A DNA stretch of 64,000 nt. It comes from Calothrix sp. NIES-4101 (lineage in GTDB: Bacteria; Cyanobacteriota; Cyanobacteriia; Cyanobacteriales; Nostocaceae). Shown piece after piece: positions 1-20,096 of the stretch. Location of the stretch: NCBI GenBank assembly GCA_004296455.1, contig AP018280.1, forward strand, positions 4,216,001-4,280,000. The letters are read 5' to 3'. The stretch's first letter is position 1. The number at the start of each line of letters is the position of its first letter. The notes beneath the pieces were generated by a model. The model worked only from the letters and a program-made list of their open reading frames with translations. It ran no database searches and was not told the DNA's origin. The position numbers and the translations under genes were made by a program.

Positions 1-20
1 AATACCAAGATATAGTAATA

Positions 21-117: not shown

Positions 118-121
118 TATA

Positions 122-1380: not shown

Positions 1381-1430
1381 TAATTTCCTAATGAAATAAT
1401 TATAAATAAAATTTACAGTTGTTAAACAAA

Positions 1431-2451: not shown

Positions 2452-3882
2452 TCATTTCTGAAAATAACGTAGCAGTTGAGAATAGCCTTTTTCTAAATTG
2501 CCAGTTTTAGCTGTCGCTCCCCATTGAGCATAATAGCAGTAAGCTTCTTGCATATACCCAACTGCTATTTTTTCTTTCCCCAAAGCCAGATAAAATTTAG
2601 CTGCTAATTCCGACGCTAGGGCAACTTCAGGAATGTAGCCCTTTTCTTTGGCGATCGCAATAGCATAATCGTAATTTTCCCTAGCTGAGGCTTGATTACC
2701 TAAAACTCTTTGCCGTTCAGCCTCAACTAGATGCCATTTGTGCAGATGATTCATGGGGTTATGTTGCGCCCATTGAGCTAAAGTAGTTTGATGAGTCTCC
2801 ACCAAGGCAAGAATTTTAGCTTGCTCAATTTCTGACAGTGTAGAATATACAGCCAAATAGCTTAACCCGGCATAAAAATGGAAAACTTCAGTATAAATTG
2901 TTCCTATCATTGACCGCAAATATAGATTAGCTTGGGCAATGTAATCTAGAGCATGACTGTAATTGCCAAAAAAATAGGCAAGCATTATTTTGTGAATATA
3001 GACACTCTTGAGCACAGTAAAATCATTATCCTGGTGGTGCTTAGGAAGCATTACCGTTTCATCATAGAAAGTACCTCTTAATAAATCTGGTTGATTGACT
3101 ATTTTTCTCCAGTTCTGCACCGTTTGTTGTATCAACTTTAGTTGAGTTAGAGGGGAATTTTGCTTCATAGTCTCTAAAACAACACAGTAATTTTCAATTT
3201 CTGCTTCCCATTTGTTTAAACATACTCCTGCGTAGAAATTAGCATCTGCATAGATAGCTATACTGTAGCCTGCATGTCGGAAATCACCAGTTTCCATTCC
3301 AGCCAAATGGCACTTTTTCATGGTTGGGATTATTGCCCTCAGTCCTTCTTGACGATGTTGGAGAAAAGTACCAAATAAAAATAAAGTCAAGGGCTTGAAT
3401 TCCTGTGCATTCAAATGATTGACTAAATTCAACGCCAACTGTCCGAAACGATAGCCCTTTTCAACCTCTCCCAAAAAAGCAGACAGCACCATGCCATAGC
3501 TTACATACCCAATGGTTGATGCGGATGTATTTCCAAATTCAAGGGATAGATTGATCATTGTGGCGCAAAGCAGAGGTAGCAAGGTAGGACTTGCCCGAAA
3601 AATGGGACCAGATAACATTGCTAACAGTTGCATCGCCGCTATTGTAGTCGGATTACTCATCACAGGGAGACTAATCAATTCCTCAATCTGTTGACCTGAG
3701 ATTCGCTTGGAAAGGCTTTGTAATGCTTTACCTGTCAAGTGTTCTTCAGGTTCAGATGGTAAATTGACCCCCAATCGTGCTAGGGCATTTTGACCCAGAG
3801 CGATCGCTTCCAACATCTGAGCCTGATCTATTAGCGTTTGGATTTGAGCCTCGTAAATATTAACTGTTTCTAGTGTGTTCAT
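2452..3882 (-). CDS. TPR-rich segment of an HstK-type signalling protein
   Basis: A 476-residue all-helical protein with degenerate TPR-like pairs throughout (for example ARENYDYAIAIAKEKGYIPEVALASELAAK). It resembles the long helical region that lies between the AAA ATPase and GAF domains of cyanobacterial Ser/Thr kinase-ATPase-histidine kinase proteins, including the typical YYAQWGATAK near the C terminus. Kinase, ATPase and histidine kinase domains are absent, and it has its own start codon, so it is either a free-standing derivative or a fragment that still reads through. It follows the VioE-like gene on the same strand after about 140 bp and could be co-transcribed with it. Function in isolation is unknown. 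Confidence 0.6.
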   Translation of the reverse strand: MNTLETVNIYEAQIQTLIDQAQMLEAIALGQNALARLGVNLPSEPEEHLTGKALQSLSKRISGQQIEELISLPVMSNPTTIAAMQLLAMLSGPIFRASPTLLPLLCATMINLSLEFGNTSASTIGYVSYGMVLSAFLGEVEKGYRFGQLALNLVNHLNAQEFKPLTLFLFGTFLQHRQEGLRAIIPTMKKCHLAGMETGDFRHAGYSIAIYADANFYAGVCLNKWEAEIENYCVVLETMKQNSPLTQLKLIQQTVQNWRKIVNQPDLLRGTFYDETVMLPKHHQDNDFTVLKSVYIHKIMLAYFFGNYSHALDYIAQANLYLRSMIGTIYTEVFHFYAGLSYLAVYSTLSEIEQAKILALVETHQTTLAQWAQHNPMNHLHKWHLVEAERQRVLGNQASARENYDYAIAIAKEKGYIPEVALASELAAKFYLALGKEKIAVGYMQEAYCYYAQWGATAKTGNLEKGYSQLLRYFQK

Positions 3883-4022
3883 TATGACTTAATTTATACT
3901 TAAGTTAGCTAAAGTTAGTATTCCCGCATACGCAAAGAAGATGAACTCCAAAAGCACTATTACTTTTTTTGTGCAACAAAGCCGTTATTTTTTGTCATCC
4001 TCGTAAAACCGTAGAAGCGATT

Positions 4023-4625
4023 TTAGTACTTGACTAAGTTTTTACTAATACTAAAAATATGATCGGGAATGATGTGTGTATCGAAGTTAGGGAAATCCCG
4101 TACTGAGGCATGTGTATTTGGGTCTCCAGTAACCATACGTACTAAATGATTGGTTCCTTGCTGAAAATAATAGGTTGATTGCCCTTTTAAGGGTCGGCTA
4201 AATGTCCAAGCATCTGTTCGCATTGCCAATATTGTATGGCTACCTGCATAAGTCGCATTATTCCGAATCAAGATATCTTGCGTCAACAACAACTCATGAC
4301 ATGCATCCACATCATCACTTAAAGGAATTGCCTGATAAATGGTTTGTTCCCTACCCTCTGATTTAGTGTAGGCTATTTTCGCCTTACGTGTTTGTCCCTC
4401 TCCAGGGGTAAATATTTCCGACATCCAGAGGTTGTATCCAGTTTCTTCCTCAGCCCAGGGATTAAATAGACCATCAATGCGGCAAACATTTCGCCTGTAG
4501 TCAAACCAGCAATATCCTGAAGTCATTCTATCTTCCTCCAGCATAGGTTGCCAGTAGGAAACATAACTAGTACTCCATTGAATTGGAAGCATTGGTGGTG
4601 TCTTATATCTTTGTTCTAGTTCCAT
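4023..4625 (-). CDS. vioE: VioE-like enzyme (violacein-type indole chemistry)
   Basis: VioE is a cofactor-free enzyme that rearranges the coupled indole-3-pyruvate imine made by VioA and VioB into prodeoxyviolaceinic acid. This 200-residue protein matches it along its whole length (Chromobacterium VioE has 191 residues). Blocks such as YVSYW, TSGYCWFDY, CRIDGLFNPW, LWMSE, RMVTGD and RDFPN are shared. The residues reported as catalytic in VioE (Tyr17, Ser19, Phe50, Asn51, Glu66, Arg172) correspond to Tyr21, Ser23, Phe54, Asn55, Glu70 and Arg176 here, all conserved. It lies 54 bp downstream of an FAD amine oxidase on the same strand, which suggests an operon that turns tryptophan into an indolic product. 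No VioB-like protein is in the window, so the true substrate may differ from that of classical VioE. Confidence 0.85.
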   Translation of the reverse strand: MELEQRYKTPPMLPIQWSTSYVSYWQPMLEEDRMTSGYCWFDYRRNVCRIDGLFNPWAEEETGYNLWMSEIFTPGEGQTRKAKIAYTKSEGREQTIYQAIPLSDDVDACHELLLTQDILIRNNATYAGSHTILAMRTDAWTFSRPLKGQSTYYFQQGTNHLVRMVTGDPNTHASVRDFPNFDTHIIPDHIFSISKNLVKY

Positions 4626-4679
4626 TTTGCCTTTTTGGTTTTAAGTTCTGAGTACAGGGTTTGTAAACTGCAATGTCGG

Positions 4680-6263
4680 TCAATGGGTTGCGATACCTAG
4701 CTTTTTTGGTGCGGCTTTACCAACGCAGATAGCAGGAGTCAAGGGCTTATGAATCGCGATGTCGTAAACAGCTTGGAGTGCTGACTCAATAGAGCCTTCC
4801 ATCCATGCTGGAAGCCTAGAACAATGTTCGCCCGCAAAGAAAAGAGTCTTCTGGGATTTTGCGATGTCCTGGTAATGCCGATGTTCATATGACATATCAT
4901 GGTTCCAAGGAACAGAACATCCTCCAGCACTCCATTTGTAATTGCTCCAAGCAATACTTGCTGCATTAAAAATTATGCCTTCGGTTTGAATTTCTGGGTG
5001 AATTTTGCTCAGAGCATTTTGAACATAGACGTTGCGATCGCACTCTGGCATCATTCCTAGATTTTCCGCATCATTGCCAATAGTATAACTAGCGAGTAAT
5101 ACGCTTTCCTCAGAGGAGTTATTTTTGATTGAGGGATAATATATCTGGCGAATGCCTTCATCGCTGAAGGAAGCACCACCAAAGATTCCATCCTTTTCCC
5201 AAAAGGGGCGAGCGCAATGAAACAAAACCTTGGTTGCTGCCCAGTAAACTGTGTTGTGAATTGTAGTCAGCTTGTTATCGTCAAACCCACTTAAATTCAT
5301 TCGTCGCAGGACTGAGAATGGTATGGTGCATAATACATAGTCGCAGTGGCGCGTATACAATCGTCCTGACTCTAACCAGGAAACCTCAACACCATTGTCA
5401 AGTACTTTCAGGGCGACTACCTCTTGGTTATATCTAATTGGAGCCTTAATTGCTGTCGCTAAACTATCAGTCAATTGATCCATCCCTCCTTGCAGTTGGA
5501 ATAAATCATGGCTCGTTTCAACTAGAATATCGCCAAGGAATAAATCAAGTGCTGTACTGCATTTTTCTCGGAAGTTTGGATAAGTTTTGATAAATGCGTG
5601 GATGTCAATAGACTTACCTTGTTCGTTAAAGAAAGGTTGCAAATCTATCTTCTCCAGTTCATCCATCAAGTGCGAACTCAGGTCTTGCTCCAGACATTCC
5701 CGTAGTTCTCCACAGCTAATAGCATCAACTATAGTCTTGAACCAAGCCGCAAACAATCGGGTATTCTCGTTATACCGCTCGTCCTGGAAGAGTCCTTGAT
5801 AGCAGGTTTGCAGCACCATCTCAGACACATCTCGAACGCGAAAGACTTTTCCACGAATTCTCAGTCTGGCATTATGCTCCTCGAACATGGTCACAAACTT
5901 GCATAACTTATGGCTCAGTCCCATCTCGTGAATGTAATCCAAAACGTACTCATGGTTGTGAGGAATACGCATCGCTCCCAGTTCTCCATAAGGAACTCCA
6001 GAACCTCTGCCAAAACGATGTGTCCAGACTCGACCACCAATCCGTGGACTACCCTCCATAATATCGATTTGGTGACCCAAACGTTCGAGTTCATAAGCAG
6101 CTACCAAACCTGCAATACCAGCACCCAGGATGGTTATGCGCTTATTTTGTTGGTAATTGGCATCCTTACATTCTTGCCGCTTTGTTTTCAGATTTATTTT
6201 TAAAGCACTTTTGCTCTCTAAGTATTTATTAGTCTTATTTGCTACATAATTAAACATTGTCAC
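4680..6263 (-). CDS. FAD-dependent amine / L-amino-acid oxidase
   Basis: Flavin amine oxidase of 527 residues. The Rossmann motif GAGIAG lies at residues 47-52, the ribose-binding Glu at 70 and GGRVW at 76-80. The C-terminal FAD-contact segment FAGEHCSRLPAWMEGS is typical of snake-venom-type L-amino-acid oxidases. The first about 40 residues are basic and not conserved. The likely reaction is oxidation of an L-amino acid to its imino acid with release of peroxide. The adjacent VioE-like gene suggests tryptophan as substrate, giving indole-3-pyruvate imine as VioA does, but it is longer than VioA (about 418 residues) and more like general oxidases, so this is inference. It would be the first gene of an operon with the VioE-like gene. 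Confidence 0.85.
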   Translation of the reverse strand: MTMFNYVANKTNKYLESKSALKINLKTKRQECKDANYQQNKRITILGAGIAGLVAAYELERLGHQIDIMEGSPRIGGRVWTHRFGRGSGVPYGELGAMRIPHNHEYVLDYIHEMGLSHKLCKFVTMFEEHNARLRIRGKVFRVRDVSEMVLQTCYQGLFQDERYNENTRLFAAWFKTIVDAISCGELRECLEQDLSSHLMDELEKIDLQPFFNEQGKSIDIHAFIKTYPNFREKCSTALDLFLGDILVETSHDLFQLQGGMDQLTDSLATAIKAPIRYNQEVVALKVLDNGVEVSWLESGRLYTRHCDYVLCTIPFSVLRRMNLSGFDDNKLTTIHNTVYWAATKVLFHCARPFWEKDGIFGGASFSDEGIRQIYYPSIKNNSSEESVLLASYTIGNDAENLGMMPECDRNVYVQNALSKIHPEIQTEGIIFNAASIAWSNYKWSAGGCSVPWNHDMSYEHRHYQDIAKSQKTLFFAGEHCSRLPAWMEGSIESALQAVYDIAIHKPLTPAICVGKAAPKKLGIATH

Positions 6264-6656
6264 TGACTAATTAAGATTAATATTTGTTAGTTTAAGATGT
6301 GAGCGCTAAGAGGATGTTATGTATTGTAACAACTATAGTATCGAGCATCTTATAACAATCTTGAAATATTAGGCTGGAATTTCATAAGGGTAATAAAACG
6401 GTAATTCTTGCCAAGATAAGATGAAGGTAAATCAGTAATAACACTATATAATGTGTAAAAAATAAGTTTTAATTCATCTTAATTCATCATTTGTTATATT
6501 GAATTTGGCTAGTAATCAGAAACGTAATCATCAGATTAGGAATTAGTATTCATGTAAACAATAAATTGAACAAATTGAACAAGTAGTGTGGGCATCTTAC
6601 CCACCTTTGAGAAATAGCAAACGAGACGCTTGCACTACTTATTTTTAGATGATTCC
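6264..6656. other. Intergenic region with one dispersed hairpin
   Basis: This 393-bp AT-rich gap separates the oxidase start from the amidase stop. It should hold the promoter of the oxidase operon next to 6264. The only clear structure is an inverted repeat: AAGTAGTG at 6581-6588 pairs with CACTACTT at 6633-6640, and TGGG pairs with CCCA just inside. It lies right after the amidase stop and may act as a terminator or be a dispersed cyanobacterial repeat. No gene is seen. Confidence 0.5.
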
Positions 6657-8141
6657 TTAGTTGGAGTAACCGGATGGATTTTGAAAAGCACCAACTATAT
6701 GATCGATTTCTTGTGCTATTGCTAACATTTCTATCTCCTGCCAGCGCTTACTGACAACTTGCATCCCAATAGGTAAACCATTCTGAGTTTGTCCAATGGG
6801 AATTACAACCGCAGGATGTCCGCTCAGGTTAAATGGCATTGTGTATGCACCGTTGGCAACTCCGTGGGGATAAAGTTTACCGTTGATATCAACTGCACTC
6901 CAAGCTGGACGGTGGGTAAATGCAGATGTGGCTGCAACGGGCACAAGCCAAACATCCCACGGTTCCAAAGCTGCATCGATTTGGGCTGTGAAATTGTCCC
7001 GTTCCGTTAGTGTTTCAAAATATCCTTTGAGAGTGGGATTTAACAGTTCCGGTAAAAATCGGCTGAAATCTCCTAATTTTCGTAGTTGCTTGTCACCTTG
7101 GGTTGCAGTGCGATATATCAACTCCAAACTGCGACGGATGTTGTATTTGTCTTTGGGTTGGGCATAATTATTGATGTATGCAGTCATCCGCGAATAGAGG
7201 TTAAGCATATTAGAAATATTAAAATTTGGAGGAAGCCAACGTTTGGTTTCTACACCAGCTTGGGATAATTTCTGCATGACATTATGCATTGCAACTTTTG
7301 TTTCCCCACTCACGGGAACCTCTTCCCATTCATCAATCCAAGCTATTTTGAAATTCTGCAAAGCCTTTCCAGATGGCACATCTAGAGGGATTGGTGGTAC
7401 ATCGGGACGACGAATATCAGCACCTGCGATTAACGAGAAACATAGTCGAATATCTTCCAGAGAACGGGCAAAACAACCTACTGTCATCATTTGTCGCAGA
7501 CATATAGGCATTCCTGGTACTTCTGGAATTGTCCCTGCTGTAGAAATGCGACGGTCAGTTGGTTTTAATCCATACACACCGCAGAAATGAGCAGGTTGAC
7601 GCACCGAACCGGCAAAATCGTTACCCAAATCCAACGCTGAAAGTCCAGCGGCGATCGCAGCAGCACTACCTCCAGAACTGCCTCCAGGTGTGTATTCTAA
7701 ATTCCAAGGATTATTTGCCCGTGGGAATAGGGAATTAGTACTTTGGTAATCACCTGCTAATTCTGCCATGTTAGTTTTCCCTAAAATCACCGCTCCCACA
7801 CTTCGCAATCTGGCAACAACAGTGGCATCCTGCTGGGGAAGATAATTTTTAAGGGGAATATATCCCGCAGTCGTACGTAGGTTTGCTGTTTCAAAAATAT
7901 CTTTAATAGTGATGGGAACACCATGCAAAGCACCCCAATTTTCCCCTTTGGCTAAAGCTTCATCTGCAAGCTTGGCTTTAGTACGAGCATTGTCTGCATC
8001 CAAGGTACAAATGGCATTTAACTGGGAATTATATTTGCCAATTTGAGCCAGGTACGCATCGATGACTTCCACAGATGAAACTTCCTTTTCTCTAATCATC
8101 CGTGCTAATTGATGGGCAGAAGCAAAATTCAGGTTAGTCAT
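6657..8141 (-). CDS. Amidase signature family hydrolase
   Basis: Hydrolase of the amidase signature superfamily, which cleaves C-N amide bonds with a Ser-cisSer-Lys triad. With the ATG at 8141 as start, the Lys lies in TIKDIFE (about residue 80), the cis-Ser in GGSSGGSAAA (about 155) and the nucleophilic Ser in DFAGSVRQP (about 179). Length is normal at about 494 residues. I rejected an in-frame TTG three codons upstream. It diverges from a TetR-type gene across about 100 bp that holds a perfect palindrome, so it is probably repressed by that regulator. The substrate cannot be read from sequence; it is a family often used for aryl amides, nitrile-derived amides or GatA-like work, but GatB/GatC neighbours are absent. 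Confidence 0.88.
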   Translation of the reverse strand: MTNLNFASAHQLARMIREKEVSSVEVIDAYLAQIGKYNSQLNAICTLDADNARTKAKLADEALAKGENWGALHGVPITIKDIFETANLRTTAGYIPLKNYLPQQDATVVARLRSVGAVILGKTNMAELAGDYQSTNSLFPRANNPWNLEYTPGGSSGGSAAAIAAGLSALDLGNDFAGSVRQPAHFCGVYGLKPTDRRISTAGTIPEVPGMPICLRQMMTVGCFARSLEDIRLCFSLIAGADIRRPDVPPIPLDVPSGKALQNFKIAWIDEWEEVPVSGETKVAMHNVMQKLSQAGVETKRWLPPNFNISNMLNLYSRMTAYINNYAQPKDKYNIRRSLELIYRTATQGDKQLRKLGDFSRFLPELLNPTLKGYFETLTERDNFTAQIDAALEPWDVWLVPVAATSAFTHRPAWSAVDINGKLYPHGVANGAYTMPFNLSGHPAVVIPIGQTQNGLPIGMQVVSKRWQEIEMLAIAQEIDHIVGAFQNPSGYSN

Positions 8142-8185
8142 AAGCAGCAACCCAGTATTTCTTGATAAAGTTAATTCTATTCACT

Positions 8186-8208
8186 TTTAGTTAATTATAT
8201 TAACTAAA
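8186..8208. promoter_or_regulatory. Palindromic operator between amidase and tetR
   Basis: A perfect 23-bp inverted repeat: TTTAGTTAAT, three bases (TAT), then ATTAACTAAA. It lies between the divergent amidase and TetR-type genes, 34 bp before the regulator's ATG. Its position and symmetry are what a TetR-family dimer needs for autoregulation and for repression of the amidase. Confidence 0.75.
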
Positions 8209-8241
8209 TTCAAAATTACAAATTGCGAACTGTTCTGTTCT

Positions 8242-8841
8242 ATGGGTCGTCCAATTAAAGAAAAATCCTTGACACCACAAGATGTGATTAATGCTGCGAT
8301 CGCATGTTTGGATAAAGAGGGTGAAAGTGCTTTGGGTGTAAATCGTGTGGCACGAGAATTGGGGATTAAACCTCCGGCTATTTACAAGCACCTGGATGGG
8401 AATACGGGATTGCGACGAGCCGTAGCTTTGGCTATTTGGCGAAGTTATTTAGTCGATTGCCAAGAACAGACCACTGAGATTATGGAACCTCATGACTTGT
8501 TTCGTGCTACTGCACTTTGCACGCGAAACTTTGCGCGATCGCATCCGGCTCAATACACTGTGATGATACAGTATCAAATGAAACCTACTGATCCAGAAGA
8601 GGCGGAAATTATTCGGGAGTCTTTGCGTTTATTTCAAAATGCTCTGCAACTATACGAATTGAGTGACGATGCTTTAATTGACGCAATGCGGATGGTGAAT
8701 GCAGCAATTTACGGTTTTATTCTCAGGGAACAGTCGGAATTAATGACGCTGAACCGCTCTGCCGACGATAGTTATGGGGTAATGTTAGATGCCTTAATTG
8801 TAGCGATCGAATATATTCATCGTATCAATACAAGTAGCTAG
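8242..8841 (+). CDS. TetR/AcrR-family transcriptional regulator
   Basis: A 199-residue regulator. The N-terminal helix-turn-helix is visible as GVNRVARELGIKPPAIYKHL at about residues 33-52, followed by a C-terminal helical ligand-binding region that varies between TetR proteins. It starts with ATG GGT CGT CCA and diverges from the amidase gene. The palindrome at 8186-8208 is its most likely operator. By the common logic of such pairs, the amidase substrate or product is probably the inducer. The C-terminal half resembles TetR_C domains rather than any named drug regulator. Confidence 0.88.
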   Translation: MGRPIKEKSLTPQDVINAAIACLDKEGESALGVNRVARELGIKPPAIYKHLDGNTGLRRAVALAIWRSYLVDCQEQTTEIMEPHDLFRATALCTRNFARSHPAQYTVMIQYQMKPTDPEEAEIIRESLRLFQNALQLYELSDDALIDAMRMVNAAIYGFILREQSELMTLNRSADDSYGVMLDALIVAIEYIHRINTSS

Positions 8842-9010
8842 ACACGAGAAATACGTTCATGAAGAGACTCCGGTAGGAATATCGCATTCTTGATAAATCC
8901 GAATAATGATCGCCAGTAACAGAAAATTGTCACAAACCAAATAATATACATTTTATGGACAACGATAACGATAAAAATGTTTGGTGGTCAATTCGTAAAA
9001 AAGCAATTGC

Positions 9011-10354
9011 TTACGGTAAAAGAAGTCTGGAATGGAATGCAAAAACTAATTCTTTACCTCCATTGTATTTCACTGATTCTATAAACCTTAAACAAAGTGC
9101 TCTCAGTTCTGAATCGGACAATTCTTCAAAAAAGTCCGCTTGATTTAAAGCCTCAAGTATATAAATATCTTCTTCAGTTTTAGACTCACGAACGCTCTTT
9201 TGTTGTTCGTGAATTTTTATTTGATACTCTGTTTCTGCGATTGTGGAATTAATCAAATCATTTTTTGGAAGAGTTTGTAATGTTGCTAACTGATGCTTTA
9301 AGGCAAGTAATTCTTCAGAAGTTTCTATTTGCTTCGCTATTGTTGAACTATTAACTGCATCCAAGATACTTTCAGCAAATTTGATTAATTCTCCAATAGT
9401 TATTTGTTTTACAATTGATGCCGAAATTTGCTTACTATTGCTACAAACAGATTTTCCGAATTTTTTATATTTTATACACTGGAATCTTAAAGAATTATTA
9501 CTGTCTTTTGAACCCGCACCAGTTTTGGACATACCAGCACCACATATCCCACAACGGAATAACCCAGCCAAAAAATGTGTTTTAAATTTGGCAGGGTCTT
9601 TTTTATGTAAAAAGGATGTAAGTTTTGATAATTCTTCGTATTGCTGTTGAGTAATTAAAGCTTCATGTGTCCCGTAATGCTTTTCTGTTTCTCCTGTCTT
9701 TAATTTGTAAAATGTATGTCCCCGAAGTGCAGGATTATGCAACCACTTGAGAATACTAGTAGGATACATTTTAATACTATGTTGCTCCACTAACCACCGA
9801 GAAAGAGATGTGAAGGAATTTTCGTAAAGCTTGTTAATTATTTCTTTTGCGATCGCCCAATTAGTAGGGTGCGGAGTACATTTTGAATTTTCATCTTTAG
9901 TATACCCAAATGGGGGCTTACCAAAGTATTTGAGATTGGAACGAAAATACTCAGTTCCAAAGGAAACTCTCTCAGATAGCAATCGACTTTCAAATTCTGC
10001 TAACCCGGCAATATTATTAATAGTTAGCCACCCAAAAGCAGAATTCGTATTCCCTAGCGGGGAATCTAGAATTGTTAGTTTTACTCCTACTTTTTGCAGT
10101 GTTTCTATTGTCCTGTGGATACTAATAACATTTCTCCCAAGTCGATCTAAGCGCGTAACAATTATTTCGGTTGCTACTCCATTTTTGGCAAGGTTAATTA
10201 ATTGGTTAAAATTCTTCCGCGTATCTTTTCTTCCAGACTCAATATCATATAGGATTTTTTCAGCACCAGCTTTTTCTAATCTATGAATTTGCTGATCGAG
10301 GGCTTCTGTATCTGCTTGATGGCGAGTAGATACACGAGCATAACCTATACGCAT
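9011..10354 (-). CDS. Large serine recombinase (XisF-type) of left nifD element
   Basis: Site-specific recombinase of 447 residues. The catalytic serine is Ser9 in GYARVST, with supporting arginines Arg68 and Arg71 in [10 protein letters not shown] Recombinase domain follows (about residues 170-260), then a zinc ribbon with CGICG and a later cysteine in VCSN (about 265-310), then a coiled-coil region. This is the layout of the large serine recombinases that excise the fdxN element (XisF) and several other nif interruptions in heterocystous cyanobacteria. Its start codon lies 60 bp from the point where nifD is broken, and it points away from nifD into its own element, as expected for an excisase encoded at the element edge. 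It would be expected to act in differentiating heterocysts. Confidence 0.9.
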
Positions 10355-10413
10355 AGAGGTTTTTTGAGATATTTCATGGATGAAATCAATCTTACCACAT
10401 TATATTTATAATC
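10355..10413. other. Element edge and attachment site, 3' side of nifD segment
   Basis: Between the recombinase start and the last nifD codon that matches nitrogenase (Met of FQKM) lies 59 bp of non-nif sequence. On the nifD strand it reads on for 23 codons to a stop and includes the inverted repeat TTTCAT-CC-ATGAAA. The breakpoint is at or just after AAGATG(G). The excision partner, with the remaining nifD 3' end (GlyXxxProPheArg, then the FeMo-cofactor histidine region), should lie to the left of the window. The exact crossover bases cannot be fixed without the partner site. Confidence 0.7.
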
Positions 10414-11022
10414 CATCTTCTGGAAGACGTACTTCTCTTTAATCCCTGAAGCGATTAAGTCAGGTTTCTTAGCTTTGACAAACTCTTCAAACTCATAAGC
10501 GGTAACATCATCGTAAATGATGGTCGCATTATCAATGTAGTCAGTAGTACGTTTGTAATCGTCATTGTGTGCAAACTCGTAACCAGTACCAACAACCTTG
10601 ATACCCAAGTCTTCAAACGCAGGTACAACGTGACGGGGACGCAAACCACCAACATAAAGCATAACGGTGTTACCTTCCAAACGGGGACGGTATTTCTTCA
10701 GCACCGCATCCATTGTTGGTTGGTATTTAGCGATAACTTTCTCAGCGTTATCTTGAATTTTCTTGTCGAACTTAGCAGCAATCTCACGCAATGAAGCAGC
10801 AATTTTGTGAGGTCCGAAGAAGTTAAATTCCATCCAAGGTAAGCCGTATGATTCTTCCAAACTACGACAGATGTAGTTCATGGAACGGTAGCAGTGGATC
10901 AAAATTAACTTAGCTGCGGGTCCTTGGATCAATTCGTTGATGGTACCGTCACCAGACCATTGAGCAACAACGCGCAAGCCCATTTCTTCGAGCAACATCC
11001 GACTTGCCCATGCGTCACCACC
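10414..11022 (-). CDS. nifD: nifD internal exon-like segment, interrupted on both sides
   Basis: NifD is the alpha subunit of the molybdenum-iron nitrogenase. This 203-codon open segment runs from [15 protein letters not shown] to KEKYVFQKM and matches NifD without gaps or stops. It contains the FeMo-cofactor cysteine (in [10 protein letters not shown], codon 44 of the segment), GLRPRHV and [12 protein letters not shown], but lacks the N-terminal half with the P-cluster cysteines and the C-terminal part with the cofactor histidine. Upstream of GGDAW the frame meets a stop after one codon (TAG at 11026-11028). Downstream it runs into 23 unrelated codons. A start at the internal ATG (10998) would be meaningless. 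The good conservation argues that it is still used after excision of both flanking elements. Confidence 0.93.
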
Positions 11023-11084
11023 AAACTAATATTGTACAACACAGAATTTTGTAGTATCCTTGTGAAAAACTACTATTTGACGGT
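11023..11084. other. Element edge and attachment site, 5' side of nifD segment
   Basis: 62 bp separate the first nifD-matching codon (GGT GGT GAC GCA) from the ATG of the right-hand recombinase. On the nifD strand the element side reads TACAATATTAGTTT before GGTGGTGAC. TACAATAT resembles the Tyr-Asn-Ile codons expected just before Gly-Gly-Asp in NifD, so the shared core may lie here, followed by a few element-specific bases. A weak inverted repeat (GTAGT / ACTAC) lies in the element arm. The partner site with the nifD 5' part should lie to the right, outside the window. Confidence 0.65.
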
Positions 11085-12425
11085 ATGCGAGTAGGATATG
11101 CCAGGGTCAGTACTGGGGAACAAGATGACGCACTTGTACAACAAATGGCGCGTTTAGAGAAAACTGGAGTTGATAAAATTTTCTCAGATATCAAGTCGGG
11201 CAAATCAAACAAGCGTAAAGAATTTAACAAACTATTGTCCTTGTGCAAAAAAGGAGAAATAAAGGAAATAGTCATTACTCGGATTGACAGGTTAGCGCGT
11301 TCAGTAGTTTCAATGTCCCGCGCGATCGCACTGTTTGAGGAAATGAACATTAAACTAACAATCCTTGATGCACCAGTTGAGAATATATCGAATCCATTCT
11401 CGAAATTCTCTATCAATCAAATGGGTGCATTAGCTCAGTTTGAGAGCGATTTGTTGCAAAGTCGAGTCAGGCATGGGTACAACTATTTCCGAGAAAAAAA
11501 TAAAGCACCTTCCCACGTTCCCTTCGGCTACGCTCGAATCGATGAAAAATATGCTCCGGACTTATCTCTGCATGAATCAGGTAAAACCAATTGGGCGATC
11601 GCCCGTGAAATTATCGATTGGATGATTGCCAATAAAGCATCCATTAGAGGAACAGCGCATTACACTCAATCCCAGTATGGCATCCGTTGGTCGATCACTG
11701 GTTTTCATAACTGGCTGAAAAATCCCGTACTCCGGGGACACACTCGTTACAATGTCCATAATAAACAGCACAAGCCGGAAGAATGGGATGTCAGGAAAGA
11801 TACCCACACAGCACTCATTGACCCAATAACCGACGAGCAATTGCGATCGCTAATGGAACAGAACCAGCGCATTTGGGGTGGAAATCGACTACAAGGAAAT
11901 CGCGGTACGGGTTTACTTTCTGGTCAGATTTACTGCAACTGCTGTGGAGGGAAGTGTTACGTTAGTCGCAAAGACAAGGATTTATTAACTTGTTCCAAAA
12001 GGAACACTTACGGTAAGACCTATTGCTCAAATAAACGTGCAACACCTTTATCTAAGGTAGTTGAGTACGTTGACAATGCCTTAAGCGAAAAGGCGATCGC
12101 ACTACGTGATTATGCATTGTCCGAAGATGAACCAGAACCAAACGAATTAATCGAATTGCGACATAAATTAGAAAGTCTGGAAAAAATACCCAAAGACGAT
12201 GTTATCGAAGATGCTATAGCAAGGATAAAAATAAAAATTCATCAATACAAGAAAATTACACCCAACCTAGCTTTAGTAGATGAATGGGTGCACACCTTCT
12301 CAGATATTAGATATTTTCAATTACTGCCACAAGAGAAGAAGTCGGAGTTATACCGAAAGTTTCTTCATGCAGTCGTTATCGATAGCGGCTCTGTTGTCCG
12401 TGTCGAATTTGTCGAGATTATCTAG
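11085..12425 (+). CDS. Large serine recombinase (XisF-type) of right nifD element
   Basis: 446-residue recombinase with catalytic Ser9 in GYARVST, Arg66 and Arg69 in TRIDRLARS, the Recombinase domain from about residue 160 to 250 and a zinc ribbon (CNCCGG ... TYCSN, about 280-310), then a charged helical tail. It is clearly a different protein from the recombinase at 9011-10354: identity is confined to catalytic and zinc motifs. It starts 62 bp from the 5' break in nifD and points away from nifD, so it should belong to a second element that extends to the right. The pair is arranged as a mirror image around the nifD segment. Confidence 0.9.
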   Translation: MRVGYARVSTGEQDDALVQQMARLEKTGVDKIFSDIKSGKSNKRKEFNKLLSLCKKGEIKEIVITRIDRLARSVVSMSRAIALFEEMNIKLTILDAPVENISNPFSKFSINQMGALAQFESDLLQSRVRHGYNYFREKNKAPSHVPFGYARIDEKYAPDLSLHESGKTNWAIAREIIDWMIANKASIRGTAHYTQSQYGIRWSITGFHNWLKNPVLRGHTRYNVHNKQHKPEEWDVRKDTHTALIDPITDEQLRSLMEQNQRIWGGNRLQGNRGTGLLSGQIYCNCCGGKCYVSRKDKDLLTCSKRNTYGKTYCSNKRATPLSKVVEYVDNALSEKAIALRDYALSEDEPEPNELIELRHKLESLEKIPKDDVIEDAIARIKIKIHQYKKITPNLALVDEWVHTFSDIRYFQLLPQEKKSELYRKFLHAVVIDSGSVVRVEFVEII

Positions 12426-12563
12426 CACTAGTTCGGGGTGAGCCAAATAATATTTAACTGTTTCATCGTCTAAGTGCTTCACTTTCTGATACACAATCGC
12501 TGTCTTTTTTAACCAGGAAGGAAGCGATTCTTTTTTAGTGACATCCATAATCGTGTTTTGCAT
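12348..12563 (-). CDS. Possible small protein overlapping the recombinase 3' end
   Basis: A 71-codon frame that is convergent with, and overlaps by 78 bp, the 3' end of the right-hand recombinase. The part outside the overlap (residues 1-45) is charged and helical (KKESLPSWLKKTAIVYQKV, DDETVKYYLAHPELVLD) and does not look like random antisense sequence, but I recognise no family and no strong ribosome-binding site. It may be the remains of a longer gene whose 3' end was replaced by the recombinase. Confidence 0.3.
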   Translation of the reverse strand: MQNTIMDVTKKESLPSWLKKTAIVYQKVKHLDDETVKYYLAHPELVLDNLDKFDTDNRAAIDNDCMKKLSV

Positions 12564-13943
12564 CTGTGGCGCTCTTGATTAAGTTTACTCAAGGGTCGAA
12601 ATATTTCTGTTACAGGCAATCTTTTTACGATAAATCTTCATCCCGCTAACGCGATATTCTTATAGAATGCTGCACATCGCATTTAGACATTGAAAGAATG
12701 ACAGTGATATTAATATTTAATGATCCGATTTCATTGCAACGACAGCAATAAATGAAATTCGCATTTGCCATAATGAATTACCATACTCCAACAGGGAGTG
12801 ATACTTAAGTCATACGGTTAAACTACGCCGACCTAATGTCTCAAATTTTGTGCGACATACCTAATTTTTTTCAGTAAGAACTTAGGCAAAAAACAAGCCT
12901 TTCTCATACTGCAACTAGACCTTTATCTAACAGCAGAGAAAGAATAGTCGATCAGCATAATCTAAATGCACTTAACTAGATGAATTTGCAGCGGAACAAC
13001 TTCCAACATAGTAACACATTTATCTCCATTTTGACAATTTTCTTACTCTCTCAGAGAATTAATACTTATATATTAGTCTATATAATATTGTTGTATTTAT
13101 TTTTTTTTACACGTAAGTAGGTGGGTTGAATTAAATATAAAATGATATAGCACTACATAATTCTTATTTCACGGGCTTTTAAGAGGATTAATCATTTTAC
13201 AAATAATTACGCCTTCCTACTTATCAAACACCAATTATATATCGATTCAAAGGTTTGTCAGACAAGAATTATACTACAGACACAGTGTTGATAGAGGAAT
13301 AAATAAAGTGTAATAAATAGTAGTTAATATACGAATACTGAATTTTTATCTGATTATAAAATTAAAATGATAAAAATTGCCAAAAGCACCGGAAATGCTG
13401 GCTCATAGCTGTGTGGGAATCCTGTTCAAGTTCTATATGAGCGATTGAATATGGTTGATTACCCAGCCCATTGGCGAGAAATTATCGAAACGTTTTTGGG
13501 ATCATGAAGAAAAATCTCGATATCAGTCACCGAGTAATTGAGTAATTTACGGATATCATAGATTCCAAAAATGTTAATTTCCAACTTGCCTGTTTTCTCA
13601 GAAACATCTAATAGTTGATTGCAAATTAGTTCGTCTTAACATAAATCAAGTTCACATAAACATTTGCGCTACACCAGTAATATTATCCCCACCAGACCCA
13701 ACTGCTCACATATCCCCATAAATCTGACAAATCGCAGTAGATAATGGTGATTTTAACTTAATCGAATCAGGATTGTAATAAAAATTTTAAAATTTACAAA
13801 TATTTTTCTGCCGACAAATAATCTTGCATTTTTTGCTTTTAATTATGATTTAAATAGTATCCACAGTAACTAACCAAAATCACAGGCGAAAACATCATAA
13901 AAATCAACATTTGATTCGTTACTAATCGATGATTTAATTATCA
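12564..13943. other. 1.38-kb AT-rich region without a recognised gene
   Basis: No frame of convincing length or composition is seen on either strand. The sequence is much richer in A and T than its neighbours, contains poly-T stretches near 13100, and lacks HIP1 sites over its whole length, unlike most of the window. It may be a decayed region between the recombinase and the truncated GNAT gene. A very short frame near 13451 reads MVDYPAHWREIIETFLGS and then stops; it may be a fragment of a lost gene. Confidence 0.5.
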
Positions 13944-14207
13944 TCAGCAACCAGCGATTAGATATAGATGCCATGTTCCTTCAGTCATACTTTCCGGTGC
14001 AAAATAGGCAACCCCCATCAAATTGCGATGGTCGGAGACCGGGCTTTGCCCATCGCAAAGCCAAATGCCAGAACTATCAGTTGCATCGTCGAAGCAAGCA
14101 GCCAGTATTTGAGCGAGTCCCCCAATTTCCTCTGATTGGAATAAACCAGTCGCCTCAGCTAAAGCCAATAATGCGGTAGTATCATCGGGTACAATTGCTC
14201 GAATCAT
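13944..14207 (-). pseudogene. 5' fragment of a GNAT acetyltransferase gene
   Basis: 87 codons corresponding to the first half of a GNAT N-acetyltransferase: MIRAIVPDDTTALLALAE, then LMGVAYFAPESMTEGTWHLYLIA, where the acetyl-CoA fold would continue with the pyrophosphate loop. The frame instead ends after AGC at 13944, so the acetyl-CoA binding half is missing and the protein cannot be functional. In the middle, a 36-bp dispersed palindrome (14023-14058) is inserted in frame and adds the residues CDGQSPVSDHRN. The sequence beyond the break is AT-rich and unrelated. Confidence 0.7.
14023..14058. repeat. Small dispersed palindromic repeat, copy 1
   Basis: TTGCGATGG and CCATCGCAA form a 9-bp stem around a centre that includes GGAGACCGGGCTTTGC. 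The 32-bp core recurs at 25833-25864 (inverted, about 28 of 32 identical) and at 52852-52883. This copy lies inside a coding frame without shifting it, so it behaves as a mobile peptide-coding insertion. Confidence 0.7.
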
Positions 14208-14342
14208 GCCAACTCCCCATAAAGTTCAAACATTAACATTTATCCACGGCACGCAGCTTAACAACAAAAATTAGTAAGTAAATTATTTTACCGCTACAAC
14301 GAATTAATCAACTTTCAATGTTTTATACTACTATTTAGTAGT

Positions 14343-15005
14343 ATGTATTTACTAATCAATCCTGTCAATGTGAGCCAGAAAAAAATCATTCACATCGACA
14401 TGGATGCTTTTTATGCATCCGTCGAGCAGCGCGACAATCCCGAATATCGAGGTAAACCTTTAGTGGTAGGTAGTTTACCCAGTCAACGCGGGGTAGTCGC
14501 AGCCGCAAGTTACGAGGCAAGGAAATTTGGGATTCATTCAGCCATGCCTTCGAGTTTAGCAGTTGCCAAATGTCCCCATCTAATCATTGTTCGTCCTAGA
14601 TTTGAGGTATACCGAGCCATATCGACTCAAATCCACAACATATTTAGACTCTACACCGACATTTTTGAACCCGTGGCATTGGATGAAGCCTACCTTGATG
14701 TCACCGAAAATAAAGGGAAATTAGCCTACGCTTCCACCGTTGCCCGACAAATTCGCTCGCAGATATTCCACGAAACCAACCTGACTGCATCCGCAGGAAT
14801 ATCGGTCAATAAATTCTTGGCAAAAATGGCATCTGGATTGAAGAAACCCAACGGGATGACAGTGATATTACCGGAAGAAGCCGAAAGCTTTGTCGAAGCG
14901 TTACCAATTGAAAAGTTTCACGGAATTGGTAGGGTGACAGCAGCCAAAATGCAATCCTTGGGGATTCGCAGTGGGGCAGATTTAAAGGCACGTTCACTCC
15001 GTTAA
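14343..15005 (+). pseudogene. dinB: 5' part of DNA polymerase IV (dinB)
   Basis: The frame encodes the first about 215 residues of a Y-family translesion polymerase: IHIDMDAFYASVEQRD (metal site), AASYEARKFGIHSAMPS, then EPVALDEAYLDVT (catalytic Asp-Glu) and the start of the helix-hairpin-helix region, GADLKARS. A full enzyme has about 350-400 residues; the little-finger DNA-binding domain is missing. The frame ends where it meets, in opposite orientation, the truncated FtsK-like gene, so both genes lost their 3' halves in one rearrangement. Without the little finger it is unlikely to be active. Upstream, TATACTACTATTTAGTAGTATG around 14325-14345 contains an inverted repeat ACTACTA/TAGTAGT that could be an operator. 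Confidence 0.85.
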
Positions 15006-16116
15006 AGCAAGTCAAGGAAACCAACTTCACATCGCTCAGAGCAAGTCTGACTAAACTGGGAGGATAGCGCAACGCTAAATATAAAACCATCGCTTTTTCA
15101 AACTGACTCTTTCCACCACCAGTCATCCCTCCTCCCAAGGTATGGTAAACATTTGAGTCAAACAGGGAGATTTCGATATACTTCCCATCGACATCTACAC
15201 CACCGGGGATAACAACGCGGTTAATATCAATCTCATTGGTTAAATCCACATAATCTGCGAAATTAGCAATTTGGCGATCGCATCTGGGAATATCGAATAC
15301 GACAGCACCGGGTATAACAGATATCATCGGTGGGTTATCAAATCCCAGTTGTTCCCCCAATTGTTGAACCAAATCGCTACCAAGTCCTTGAACTTTCTTG
15401 AAGCTAACCCCTTTCCCCAACTTGATTTTGATGCGTTTGAAGGTGGGACCAGTTTTCGTATCGAGGTAACTACAGGTAATGCCAAAATCATTCAGGGTTT
15501 CGACTAAGTTGTCACCAACTTGAGAATTAAAATTTTCTGCGATCGCGATATTATCATAATCGGGATTATTAGTATTTACAGCATTTTGAGCAACGACTAA
15601 AGATGGAACTTCTCCAGTCTTCTTAGCAACTAATTCAGCCGTTTTATAAACAAGTTGCTTCAAATAAATATTTTTAGTGGATTCCGCAGTCTTGATTAAA
15701 CTTTGATAGGATTTACTTTTTTGATATTGCTGATATAAATCGACAATAAAAGCATCACGTTCATATTTACTAATGTAGCGATTGGTTAAAATATATTCCA
15801 AAGCCAACTTAGAAAAAGCCAAATCTTCTAAGTTTAATTCTGCCCAACAAACATCGATAATTTCTTCAGCAGAAGTGCCACTAATTACAGCCTGATAAAT
15901 GAGTTCAAATAAATAATTATGGTCATAACTCTTGGTGGGTCGAATGATTTTACTGCCAAAATCCGATTCTTCAAGAACATCAATAATATACTGCTGCTGA
16001 CTTAAATCAAATATTTGCTCGGCTTCTGTGATGATTTCCTGATTTGATAATCCTTGCGATTTGAGGCTATACACTGCATTAGCGATCTCCTGATGATTAT
16101 AATCAGACATTATCAA
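14990..16116 (-). pseudogene. FtsK/SpoIIIE-like DNA translocase, 3' end lost
   Basis: About 370 residues of a plasmid-type FtsK-like translocase. The N-terminal half is helical and species-specific; the motor starts with GKGVSFKKVQGLGSDLVQQL and continues to the Walker A GMTGGGKSQ (about residue 330) and LALSDVK, where the Walker B region should follow. At about 14990-15000 the sequence runs into antisense dinB, so the rest of the motor is missing; the frame stays open to 14806 only by chance. It is the last gene of the minus-strand operon starting at 20339 and overlaps the lysozyme gene by 4 bp. In an intact conjugative element this motor would pump DNA to the transfer channel. Confidence 0.8.
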
Positions 16117-16913
16117 CCTCCCAAGGCTAACAATTGCTGTTGGTAATAATTATTCAACTCCTGCATACTTTTGGGATTTTGATTGTAGGAATTACAAGGA
16201 AAGGAAGCCCAAATCTTGCCAACTTTACATGCTGCTTTCGTGAAATTACCAGATTCAATATCCGCGATCGCATTGTTCCGACGAATGTACTCAACAGCCA
16301 TCCTGTCCTGGGATTGGGGTGAAAAATCAGTTAGTTTGAGCTTAGGTTGCAAGTCCCACCAAGACTTATCTAGCATTTGGTAAGCACCAGCAGCAGTTGA
16401 ACAAACTCGTTTACCATTAATTGGGGCACATTGCTTGATTAATGGATGTGTTGAAAAGTTATTAAAAGTACCATTAAAAACTAATTTACGATAACTTTCT
16501 TTTGTATTTGTTCCAGTTTCAGCCCAGCGAATAGTTGCTAAAAAAGCTTGCATTTTCGGAGAATATTTAGAATTTACTCCAATATTAGTCTGAAGAGAAC
16601 TAGTTTTAAATCCAAAAGTTTGAGAACCTAACAAACAGTAAATACCCAAACAAGAAATCGAAGCTAAAGATAAATGAATTGGTTTAATTTTACTGGCAAC
16701 ACGGTGATAATCTACTCCAGGAAATAGTCCAAATATACCACCAATAATAAAACCTAATTTCCAACTATCAGTTGACTTCCCAAAAGCGCTAACGAGGCAT
16801 ATTTTATCAGTATTAGGAGAAACTAAACCGCATGAAACAGAAGCAATTCCATAACTCAAAGCAACCGAACTCGCAGCACCAATTAAGCCGGAGATGAATA
16901 TTTTCCATAACAT
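16113..16913 (-). CDS. Membrane-anchored lambda-R-like lytic transglycosylase
   Basis: 266 residues. The N-terminal third has three hydrophobic segments (about 5-30, 52-66 and 82-98). The rest matches lambda endolysin R: FLATIRWAETGT with the catalytic Glu at 132, STAAGAYQMLDKSWWD, LTDFSPQSQDRMAVEYI and GKIWASFP. Enzymes of this type cut the glycan strand of peptidoglycan without lysozyme hydrolysis. The membrane anchor and the position between an M23 peptidase and an FtsK-like translocase suggest that it opens the cell wall for a transfer apparatus, like VirB1, rather than lysing the cell. It overlaps the downstream translocase gene by 4 bp and follows the M23 gene after 1 bp. Confidence 0.85.
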   Translation of the reverse strand: MLWKIFISGLIGAASSVALSYGIASVSCGLVSPNTDKICLVSAFGKSTDSWKLGFIIGGIFGLFPGVDYHRVASKIKPIHLSLASISCLGIYCLLGSQTFGFKTSSLQTNIGVNSKYSPKMQAFLATIRWAETGTNTKESYRKLVFNGTFNNFSTHPLIKQCAPINGKRVCSTAAGAYQMLDKSWWDLQPKLKLTDFSPQSQDRMAVEYIRRNNAIADIESGNFTKAACKVGKIWASFPCNSYNQNPKSMQELNNYYQQQLLALGG

Positions 16914-16914
16914 A

Positions 16915-17565
16915 TTACCGACCTGCTAAATATTGCTGCAAGTAAGGACGAGGATTAATAGGTTTATCGTTCACTCGAACCTCAAAATGTAGATGTGGTG
17001 CAGTGGACATACCTGTGCTACCCACTGCTGCGATCGCTTGTCCCCGTCTAACCTGCTGTCCTTCTTGCACATAAAGTTTGCTTGCATGACCATAAAGCGT
17101 TGATTTTCCCCCTCCATGATTCACAATTACAGCGTTACCATACCCACCTCTTTTCCCTGCAAACTCAACCTTTCCGTTGCTGATCGCATAAATTGGAGTA
17201 CCCATCGCAGCACCAAAATCTATACCAGTATGAAATCTGCGTTCTCCGGTAATTGGGTGAATTCTCCAGCCAAATCCACTCGTCACAGGGGTGTTTTTGA
17301 CTGTAGGAAAAGCGATTTGACTGGTACTTCTATCATTCGTAATACTTGTATTGCCTTCACCAATCAGGTTTTGCAGAGATTTGACCAATGGTTGCGATTC
17401 AATCCAGGAAGAGATTTGAGGATGTGCGATCGCAATAGTCAAGAGTAAAGTTGCAAAAGCATAATACCAATTTCTATCAATTGAGTTACGTTCAAATTTT
17501 CTAGCTCCAATTGACGTATCTTCTGAAGCAGTTTTAGTACTATCAATTTCCAGCTTGATTCGCAT
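16915..17565 (-). CDS. M23-family peptidoglycan endopeptidase
   Basis: 216 residues with an N-terminal transmembrane anchor (about 34-50) and a C-terminal LytM/M23 domain. The zinc ligands are visible in HTGIDFGAAMGT (His, Asp) and APHLHFEV (HxH). GWRIHPITGERRFHTGID and NHGGGKSTLYGHAS are typical. It cuts peptide cross-links in the cell wall. It overlaps the upstream small membrane protein gene by 23 bp and is followed 1 bp later by the transglycosylase gene, so the two wall enzymes are made together as part of one envelope-penetrating machine. Confidence 0.9.
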   Translation of the reverse strand: MRIKLEIDSTKTASEDTSIGARKFERNSIDRNWYYAFATLLLTIAIAHPQISSWIESQPLVKSLQNLIGEGNTSITNDRSTSQIAFPTVKNTPVTSGFGWRIHPITGERRFHTGIDFGAAMGTPIYAISNGKVEFAGKRGGYGNAVIVNHGGGKSTLYGHASKLYVQEGQQVRRGQAIAAVGSTGMSTAPHLHFEVRVNDKPINPRPYLQQYLAGR

Positions 17566-17794
17566 TTTTACAACTCGAATTAGTGGAACTTAGTAACTTC
17601 TCAAAATTATTTTTTGGGTTATTACAAATCGAATCAGTGGGGGTTGATGTCGGTTGAGAAAGAACTGCACTATTGATGGGAAATTTAATCTTTGAATTTA
17701 CGTTTTTCAAGTTATAAAACTTGAGGTATCCAGGTTGGAGAATATCTAGTAACCACACCAATAATGTAAATCCAAAGCAAACTTTTACCCACAT
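17543..17794 (-). CDS. Small single-pass membrane protein of the transfer-like operon
   Basis: 83 residues: a hydrophobic N-terminal segment (VCFGFTLLVWLLDILQP) and a polar Ser/Thr/Asn-rich tail that would lie in the periplasm. It overlaps the start of the M23 peptidase gene and shares 1 bp with the gene before it (17794-18144). I do not recognise a family. By position it is an accessory subunit of the envelope complex encoded by this operon. Confidence 0.6.
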   Translation of the reverse strand: MWVKVCFGFTLLVWLLDILQPGYLKFYNLKNVNSKIKFPINSAVLSQPTSTPTDSICNNPKNNFEKLLSSTNSSCKNANQAGN

Positions 17795-18144
17795 TATTCC
17801 AACTGCCGAAATACTGGCATCGCAAATGATGGTACTTTTTCTGGCACAACTTCAATCTTTTTCCCCGAAGCATAACCGGGTCCTGTATAACTGCCATTGA
17901 GTAAAAAATTAATCAGCAGTACGAACAACCATAATCCAACAGCACCTACACCAATAGGAGATTTGATACAGTCACCAAGAAAATAGGCAGGATACCAAAC
18001 AAAACGCCAGGTGTTTTGGGGATGCAATCTGTGGGCTTTCCATACTTCCACATAAGGGATTTCGATGTGGGGAACTCTAGGTTTTTGGGAAGCTTGGGAG
18101 TTGACATATCGAACCTCTAAGGGTTGAGTATCTATCACAGGCAT
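17794..18144 (-). CDS. Small membrane protein of the transfer-like operon
   Basis: 116 residues with a polar N-terminal half containing EVWKAHRLHPQNTWRFVWYPAY and one strong membrane segment (VGAVGLWLFVLLINFLL, about residues 68-84), then a short tail with GPGYASGKK. A good ribosome-binding site (GGAGG) lies about 20 bp upstream of the ATG. It overlaps the next gene by one base. I recognise no family. Confidence 0.6.
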   Translation of the reverse strand: MPVIDTQPLEVRYVNSQASQKPRVPHIEIPYVEVWKAHRLHPQNTWRFVWYPAYFLGDCIKSPIGVGAVGLWLFVLLINFLLNGSYTGPGYASGKKIEVVPEKVPSFAMPVFRQLE

Positions 18145-18174
18145 TCCCGATTGTTGGTTGACAATTCCTCCTTG

Positions 18175-18273
18175 TTATTGAACTTGATTTAACATTCCTT
18201 GCAAGCGAGTAGTAGGAATAATTGCCCCACTTTCGGAATAATCAACATTAAAATTACGGCGGTTTTTATTCAT
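18175..18273 (-). CDS. 32-residue small ORF within the operon
   Basis: A frame of 33 codons starting ATG AAT AAA AAC CGC with a well-placed GAGGT ribosome-binding site 6 bp upstream, and ending TAA just before the GGAGG of the next gene. The peptide (NRRNFNVDYSESG, then TTRLQGMLNQ) is polar without a membrane segment. It fills the only gap in an otherwise overlapping operon, which argues that it is real. No family is recognised. Confidence 0.5.
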   Translation of the reverse strand: MNKNRRNFNVDYSESGAIIPTTRLQGMLNQVQ

Positions 18274-18289
18274 GATTACCTCGACAAAA

Positions 18290-20088: not shown

Positions 20089-20096
20089 TTGCGCGA

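Follow-up and report, generated by a model that had tools for sequence, protein, structure and literature searches.

A nitrogenase operon probably kept in inverted and permuted pieces in Calothrix sp. NIES-4101 and rebuilt by site-specific excision and inversion

Calothrix sp. NIES-4101 carries the pieces of its nitrogenase genes spread over ca. 350,000 bases of a single contig, and we consider it likely that the operon is stored in this form and rebuilt by site-specific excision and inversion. The stretch analysed here (the window, 64,000 nucleotides) corresponds to C1:4216001-4280000, where C1 is the 7.24-Mb contig of a 7.59-Mb genome in 6 contigs, and holds an internal piece of nifD between two recombinase genes. 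Across the operon there are nine breaks, two in nifB (B1 and B2), three in nifH (H1 to H3), three in nifD (D1 to D3), and one in nifK (K), each of them adjoined by a recombinase gene. In the assembly, some gene parts are inverted and permuted relative to the others, an arrangement that deletions by themselves would not resolve.

An earlier reading of the window from its letters alone (hereafter the sequence-only reading) had described 203 open codons of NifD, broken at both ends and flanked by two outward-pointing serine recombinase genes that start ca. 60 bp from the breaks, and we indeed confirmed all of these points. The minus strand of 10413-11022 matches positions 213-425 of the TIGR01282 profile far beyond chance (E = 8.3e-105) and has no stop across nifD codons 238-440. 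Both recombinases, which are 34.8% identical to each other, carry Resolvase, Recombinase, and zinc-ribbon domains and pass the cut-off of the NCBIfam XisF model. The pieces of nifD and their surroundings are as follows (window positions unless C1 is given):

1..10412, no strand: right-hand portion of D2, an element of 61.6 kb with its start near C1:4164847
9011..10354, minus strand: XisF-family serine recombinase of D2 (FQKM break), NF041201 457.3 bits against a cut-off of 375
10413..10419, no strand assigned: D2 attachment core (minus-strand sequence AAGATGG), forming the 3' end of nifD piece 2; the same 7 bp stand before the micro-piece at C1:4164846
10413..11022, minus strand: nifD piece 2, codons 238-440 with the AAGATGG core included, TIGR01282 profile match in open frame
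11023..11024, no strand: D1 attachment core TT beside nifD piece 2, joining in frame with codon 237 at C1:4383892
11023..64000, no strand: left-hand portion of D1, an element of 156.9 kb extending as far as C1:4383891
11085..12425, plus strand: XisF-family serine recombinase of D1 (codon 237/238 break), NF041201 492.8 bits against 375
nifD piece 1, ending at C1:4383892, minus strand: codons 1-237, 157 kb to the right of the window piece, joining via the TT core
C1:4164846-4164808, minus strand: nifD micro-piece of 39 bp (GLPFRQMHSW plus the GGATTACTCCG repeat), found by a six-frame search of 400 kb
C1:4160066-4159942, minus strand: C-terminal piece of nifD (nifD4), starting at the XisA-type repeat at C1:4160067

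Both predicted breaks are real, though the right one lies after codon 237 (bp 711) and the core shared there is just TT; the longer candidate ATTAGTT was rejected because it joins out of frame, whereas TT yields the frame, the reference sequence, and symmetric arms. The N-terminal remainder of nifD had been expected to the right and the C-terminal remainder to the left, and this is where they are found, in the same orientation. However, what follows FQKM on the left comes as two pieces rather than one: ca. 10 residues missing between FQKM and the XisA-type repeat were recovered as the 39-bp micro-piece, 61.6 kb from the window piece, with the C-terminal piece at 66 kb. Two interruptions and three pieces, as first proposed, were thus too few, and nifD consists of four pieces separated by three elements. 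Similarly, the two window breaks do differ from the XisA site, but the third break is that of an ordinary XisA-type element at WDYSGP. This D3 break lies at nifD bp 1349-1360 in GGATTACTCCG, which, at nifD ca. 1355, we take to be the XisA site repeat of Anabaena 7120, and beside it stands an XisA-like gene (C1:4160347-4161660) that is 75% to 86% identical to copies at the same junction in relatives. When the four pieces are joined at TT, AAGATGG, and GGATTACTCCG, the result is an uninterrupted frame of 494 codons whose protein scores 864.7 bits against a curated cut-off of 653.55. A second or intact nifD was sought in the whole genome of the strain and none was found, while all parts of the gene are present. 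The sequence-only reading is therefore partly supported and correct in its direction; beyond its view, nifB, nifH, and nifK are broken as well, and parts of the operon are inverted and out of order.

Breaks at ca. bp 711 and ca. 1318 are common to all three genomes of the genus examined (this strain, Calothrix elsteri [G001], and G002), and the former is also found in Calothrix sp. CSU_2_0. In Calothrix elsteri, the D1 and D2 breaks recur beside the same recombinases and a third element is absent; its micro-piece is still continuous with the C-terminus of nifD, a natural empty site for D3. At the same break, relatives of the D1 recombinase are 96% identical in CSU_2_0 and 85% in Calothrix elsteri, and those of the D2 recombinase 93% to 94% in the congeners G001 and G002. 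The tblastn tables behind these comparisons, and behind the nifK/nifE block of G005 and G110 described below, were filtered at 45% to 60% identity.

The other operon pieces were located by nifH and nifK searches plus tblastn with the intact cluster of a relative (G011). We found nifK in two pieces (8.6 kb apart), nifH in four, and nifB in three, while fdxN is unbroken. In ascending order on C1, a left part, all on the minus strand, consists of nifE, nifK2, nifK1, nifD4, the micro-piece, nifD2, nifD1, nifH-d, nifB-N, and the 5' piece of nifB; a right part, all on the plus strand, consists of nifH-c, the group nifB-C, fdxN, nifS, nifU, and nifH-a, and finally nifH-b. The 5' piece of nifB (C1:4408458-4408547) escaped both a regular-expression search (400 and 800 kb) and a whole-genome scan for an upstream pattern; it is a weak protein match (E 0.058) that is confirmed by a shared core of 15 bp. 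At D1, D2, D3, K, B1, and H1, the parts have the same orientation and order and one deletion would be enough. It would not be enough at B2 and H3, where the parts have opposite orientation, nor at H2, where orientation is the same and order is reversed. Eight of the recombinases are serine enzymes of the XisF family (390.5 to 493.5 bits against 375, the one of the nifK element scored without its first ca. 28 codons) and one is XisA-like, and all nine open reading frames are long and open. No intact nifK or nifB was found elsewhere in the genome, which contains a gene of family PF03574, which we take to be hetR. Upstream of nifB lies an interval with a DAHP synthase gene; an open reading frame there that looked topoisomerase-like by eye had no Pfam match and was dropped.

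At every junction the flanking gene parts share a core of 2 to 17 bp in gene orientation, and all nine junctions join in frame. The rebuilt element sites are in part symmetric: at D1, 16 of 20 positions are symmetric (reached by none of 2000 shuffles) and at D2, 15 of 20 (3 of 2000), while the circle-rebuilt sites of B2 and H3 are symmetric about the core to a degree that none of 2000 shuffles reached and that of H1 to a degree reached by 61 of 2000.

Recombination of all nine pairs of sites was simulated on the sequence of 400 kb, first in 60 random orders and then in 200. All orders (60/60 and 200/200) ended in one linear molecule of 76,901 bp, identical among the 200, plus seven circles of 4741, 8621, 14312, 14608, 61566, 62382, and 156869 bp that add up to 323 kb. 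The linear product encodes NifB (485 amino acids), NifH (295), NifD (494), and NifK (511) in open frames and operon order and retains the interval that precedes nifB; NifB, NifH, and NifK as rebuilt score 674.3, 472.8, and 890.6 bits against cut-offs of 343.65, 394.35, and 427.3. Deletion alone was insufficient in every simulated order. Seven excisions and two inversions were used in 141 of the 200 orders and eight excisions with the re-integration of one circle in the other 59. Starting from the arrangement as it stands, a single reaction yields an inversion at B2 or H3 and an excision at any of the seven remaining junctions, with H2 releasing a circle that carries nif genes.

These results suggest the following picture for this cyanobacterium, which appears to carry hetR and to share its genus with Calothrix elsteri, with the window as the middle of its fragmented operon. 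In differentiating heterocysts, each recombinase would act on its own pair of sites. DNA between gene parts of the same orientation, such as those of nifD, would leave as a circle, and DNA between parts of opposite orientation would be inverted. Whatever the order of events, the outcome would be one contiguous nifB-fdxN-nifS-nifU-nifH-nifD-nifK operon plus seven circles of 323 kb. The simplest derivation of the present arrangement would be two ordinary inversions with breakpoints outside coding sequence, one from the second nifH element to ca. 17 kb upstream of nifB and one from the second nifB element to the third nifH element. Such inversions would have been tolerated because the site-specific reactions restore the genes in any orientation. 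The sequence shows the pieces, their shared cores, the recombinase genes, the open frames, and purifying selection; the reaction itself, its timing and directionality factor, the expression of these genes, and the history of the inversions are what we infer from it.

Several observations weigh against this picture. The inverted and permuted order of this strain is seen in one assembly only, and in the congener G002 nifB-C, fdxN, nifS, nifU, and nifD1 all have one orientation, which means that the scramble does not extend to the whole genus. D1 and K have cores of just 2 bp, and these were picked with the help of the frame and the reference gene, and site symmetry is not significant at K (274 of 2000 shuffles), H2 (964 of 2000), and the XisA-type D3 (1881 of 2000) in a test that covered eight of the nine junctions, with B1 left out. 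Tested as a tyrosine recombinase, the XisA-like protein of D3 reaches 24.2 bits for Phage_integrase, just below the Pfam cut-off of 27.1, and has no NCBIfam match. A directionality factor was sought via XisH (XisI was not searched) and none was identified; the three XisH genes found all lie outside the nif elements. Finally, an intact second nifH is present at C1:1620269-1621123, so nifH alone might not need repair.

It is conceivable, though in our judgement unlikely, that the nifD elements are ordinary and undergo their usual excision, and that the inversions and permutations in the nifB/nifH part were introduced by the assembly, with a normal operon of nine directly oriented elements as the real order. 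Seven cases of gene halves in opposite orientation were judged likely mis-assemblies by Hilton et al. 2016, as far as the consulted text of that survey shows (PMC4874684), the related G002 contig lacks the same scramble, and the region contains insertion-sequence-like repeats of ca. 1.7 kb with 99.8% to 100% identity. Against this, the error would have to comprise two spurious inversions in a 7.24-Mb contig, none of whose breakpoints fell within a coding piece, and in the 400 kb examined no inverted repeat of at least 300 bp links intervals X1 and X3 or X2b and part of X5. The same result led us to drop long inverted repeats as the cause of the inversions. A comparable inversion is moreover colinear in two other species of one genus, G005 and G110, where a block of the nifK C-terminal part plus the nifE N-terminal part is inverted relative to its neighbours. 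Their sequences align in the same order through the inversion, with segments of 87% to 96% identity, some gaps, and ca. 5 kb extra near nifK1 in G110. Synonymous versus nonsynonymous differences between them are 7/0 for nifK2, 9/1 for the nifE N-half, 29/1 for the nifE C-half, and 31/13 for nifK1, with ratios of nonsynonymous to synonymous rates (dN/dS) of 0.00, 0.03, 0.009, and 0.11. This shared colinear inversion together with strong conservation makes mis-assembly or decay unlikely in G005 and G110; on these alignments inversion is very probably a real phenomenon in this pair, where one inversion appears to have persisted through a speciation under strong purifying selection.

Split nifE genes gave a broader view of how often halves are inverted. 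With both halves on one contig, they are opposite in 5 of 11 scorable genomes (G005, G110, G021, G074, G166) and parallel in six (G105, G062, G093, G020, G090, G164); G021 is a single contig, and G062, G093, and G166 are drafts. They belong to a set of 18. Among 193 genomes, 16 had a best nifE match below the cut-off, and all of these except G025 (best E 2.7e-22) were taken, which gave 15; added to them were G005, G090, and G110, in which a split nifE stands beside another nifE-like gene; the set was thus chosen partly by noticed cases, and similar genomes with a second nifE-like gene can be missed. The seven unscored genomes have their halves on different contigs (G014, G033, G094, G118, G139, G158) or no C-half listed (G092). 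In comparison, none of 15 nifD splits at the XisA site is inverted among the matches listed, counted by eye (G000, G003, G005, G006, G008, G012, G014, G017, G021, G022, G023, G027, G029, G033, G034), and the difference between 5 of 11 and 0 of 15 among these matches has a Fisher P of 0.007 with relatedness ignored.

We regard it as very unlikely that nitrogen fixation has been lost and that the pieces are decaying relics whose elements no longer recombine. At three of the nine junctions, scrambling stands in the way of a simple deletion, and the nifH of the congener G002 has been cut down to a short fused remnant, but here every piece joins in frame without stops, the four rebuilt proteins exceed curated cut-offs, and all nine recombinase genes have remained open. 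Selection on the pieces points the same way, with dN/dS relative to G001 of 0.045 for nifD2, 0.038 for the micro-piece plus C-terminus, 0.079 for nifH-c, 0.07 for nifH-b, 0.022 for nifB-N, 0.086 for nifB-C, and 0.101 for nifK1 (seven pieces or piece groups; nifH-a, nifH-d, nifD1, and nifK2 left out). These values of 0.02 to 0.10 indicate that the tested pieces are not relics, and the window recombinases have 0.057 and 0.103, the first with a dS of 1.9 near saturation. Joining of the pieces as RNA or protein, by trans-splicing or inteins, instead of as DNA is hardly credible. Nothing in favour of it turned up, though no specific search was made, and it would leave aside the recombinase gene plus shared core at every break and the symmetric arms at five of seven serine sites tested (at most 61 of 2000 shuffles); the closest known systems, according to the text consulted of the 2016 survey, act on DNA (PMC4874684).

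The nearest known counterparts are heterocyst interruption elements. In the available text of Hilton, Meeks, and Zehr 2016 (PMC4874684), 101 elements are reported, of which 34 are in nifD at four positions (227, 895, and 1355 being named), with up to four elements in one nifD (Rivularia 7116), 11 elements in Calothrix 7103, lengths that approach 1 Mb at the upper end, interrupted genes including nifD, fdxN, hupL, nifH, and nifK, elongation factor G paralogues in some elements, and the above seven opposite-orientation cases. Multiple elements, serine recombinases, and large size are thus already known (PMC4874684). Like these heterocyst elements, those described here bear recombinases, lie inside nif genes, share cores, and have a recombinase gene beside one junction that points inward (PMC4874684, in the text consulted); all nine junctions show in-frame gene parts, a direct repeat, and a recombinase gene near one end, but restoration of the gene in place by one deletion fails at B2, H3, and H2. 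Compared to the surveyed elements as that text presents them, this strain differs by nine elements in one operon, cores down to 2 bp, a gene piece of 39 bp between two elements, and inverted and permuted parts not restorable by deletion alone; its nifD sites at bp ca. 711 and ca. 1318 are not among the three named, which leaves room for no more than one of the two as the fourth position. D3 resembles the XisA-type nifD element in its site at GGATTACTCCG, its XisA-like recombinase, and an elongation factor G gene as in some elements of the survey's text (PMC4874684). It differs from the usual one by spanning just 4.7 kb and by a site no more than 39 bp from that of another element. All eight serine recombinases pass the NCBIfam model of XisF, the enzyme of the Anabaena 7120 fdxN element; unlike XisF, they stand beside breaks in nifB, nifH, nifD, and nifK and have other cores, while fdxN is whole. 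XisF excises the fdxN element with XisH and XisI, whereas no nif element here has an XisH gene.

In ciliates, scrambled gene segments are put in order during differentiation of the somatic cell. Inverted and permuted segments in the inherited genome and short shared junction sequences are features that ciliates such as Oxytricha (PMC9797194) have in common with our strain as assembled, but in the latter a separate site-specific recombinase seems to serve each junction, and neither an RNA guide nor a general elimination machinery is implied. By analogy, then, the two systems would work alike without belonging together. Excision of an element by its recombinase also restores developmental genes in the sigK/skin and spsM/SP-beta systems, though there it is one element from one gene, and their abstracts do not mention inverted or permuted parts (PMC5025042, PMC4191935). 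In the literature searched, with most subscription journals outside its coverage, we found, apart from the seven cases set aside in 2016, no report of inverted or scrambled nif genes, and no description of such an order as a real, resolvable state.

More generally, we lean toward the view that heterocyst formers keep nitrogenase operons truly scrambled in a ciliate-like manner, with orthogonal recombinases that invert and delete DNA in the terminal cell. If so, the reactions would make order and orientation irrelevant, and ordinary inversions could therefore accumulate neutrally inside the elements. Opposite-orientation cases set aside in 2016, according to the text consulted (PMC4874684), would then be real, and their dismissal is reopened by the split nifE genes, among which halves of opposite orientation are no rarity (5 of 11). 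Gene scrambling and unscrambling, known in ciliates, would also be bacterial, with simpler, testable machinery, and the origin of scrambled genes would become testable in culture-collection relatives with a terminal cell type. In addition, a single genome may offer up to eight possibly orthogonal pairs of serine recombinase and site for use in DNA assembly tools.

Some further observations concern the nif genes of relatives. A nifD break near codon 258-262 is found in CSU_2_0, G002, and G022 (L148 2600-3010; L059 ca. 4000; G022:C32, C54), and in CSU_2_0 it leaves a nifD piece of ca. 25 codons adjoining the codon 237 break. The D2 recombinase of G002 (L059 4557-5941, G002:C59) is in two overlapping pieces in different frames, possibly due to a frameshift or draft error. 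The nifH remnant of G002 beside nifD1 (L058 8719-8870, G002:C198) consists of ca. 24 N-terminal codons, a few from the middle, and the last ca. 19, and looks wrongly joined or could be an assembly artefact; this genome has an intact nifH at G002:C38:69650-70504.

As to cargo, the elongation factor G gene (C1:4161905-4163995, minus strand) occupies much of the 4.7-kb D3 element, and the region downstream of the nif genes contains another XisA-like gene with 49% identity (C1:4132396-4133883, minus strand). In D1, window 32428-37101 (plus strand) encodes a Tn7-like set of Mu-type transposase, TniB-type ATPase, and TniQ with no open reading frame of Cas12k size listed beside it. An FtsK/SpoIIIE-domain protein is encoded at 14806-20088 (minus strand), overlapped by a Y-family polymerase fragment (14343-15005); neighbouring open reading frames look by eye like peptidoglycan enzymes and small membrane proteins (two were scanned, with no Pfam match), and the region is perhaps a conjugation module of D1. 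A short open reading frame occurs in D1 in two copies (50282-50843 and 63254-63815) that are 92.7% identical over 562 bp. Three paralogous stretches, by eye kinase-like, cupin-like, and glutathione-transferase-like, are common to D1 (56956-57450, 57768-58084, and 58633-59647) and the first nifH element (C1:4484837-4490831) at 80% to 83% DNA identity, so the elements seem to exchange genes.

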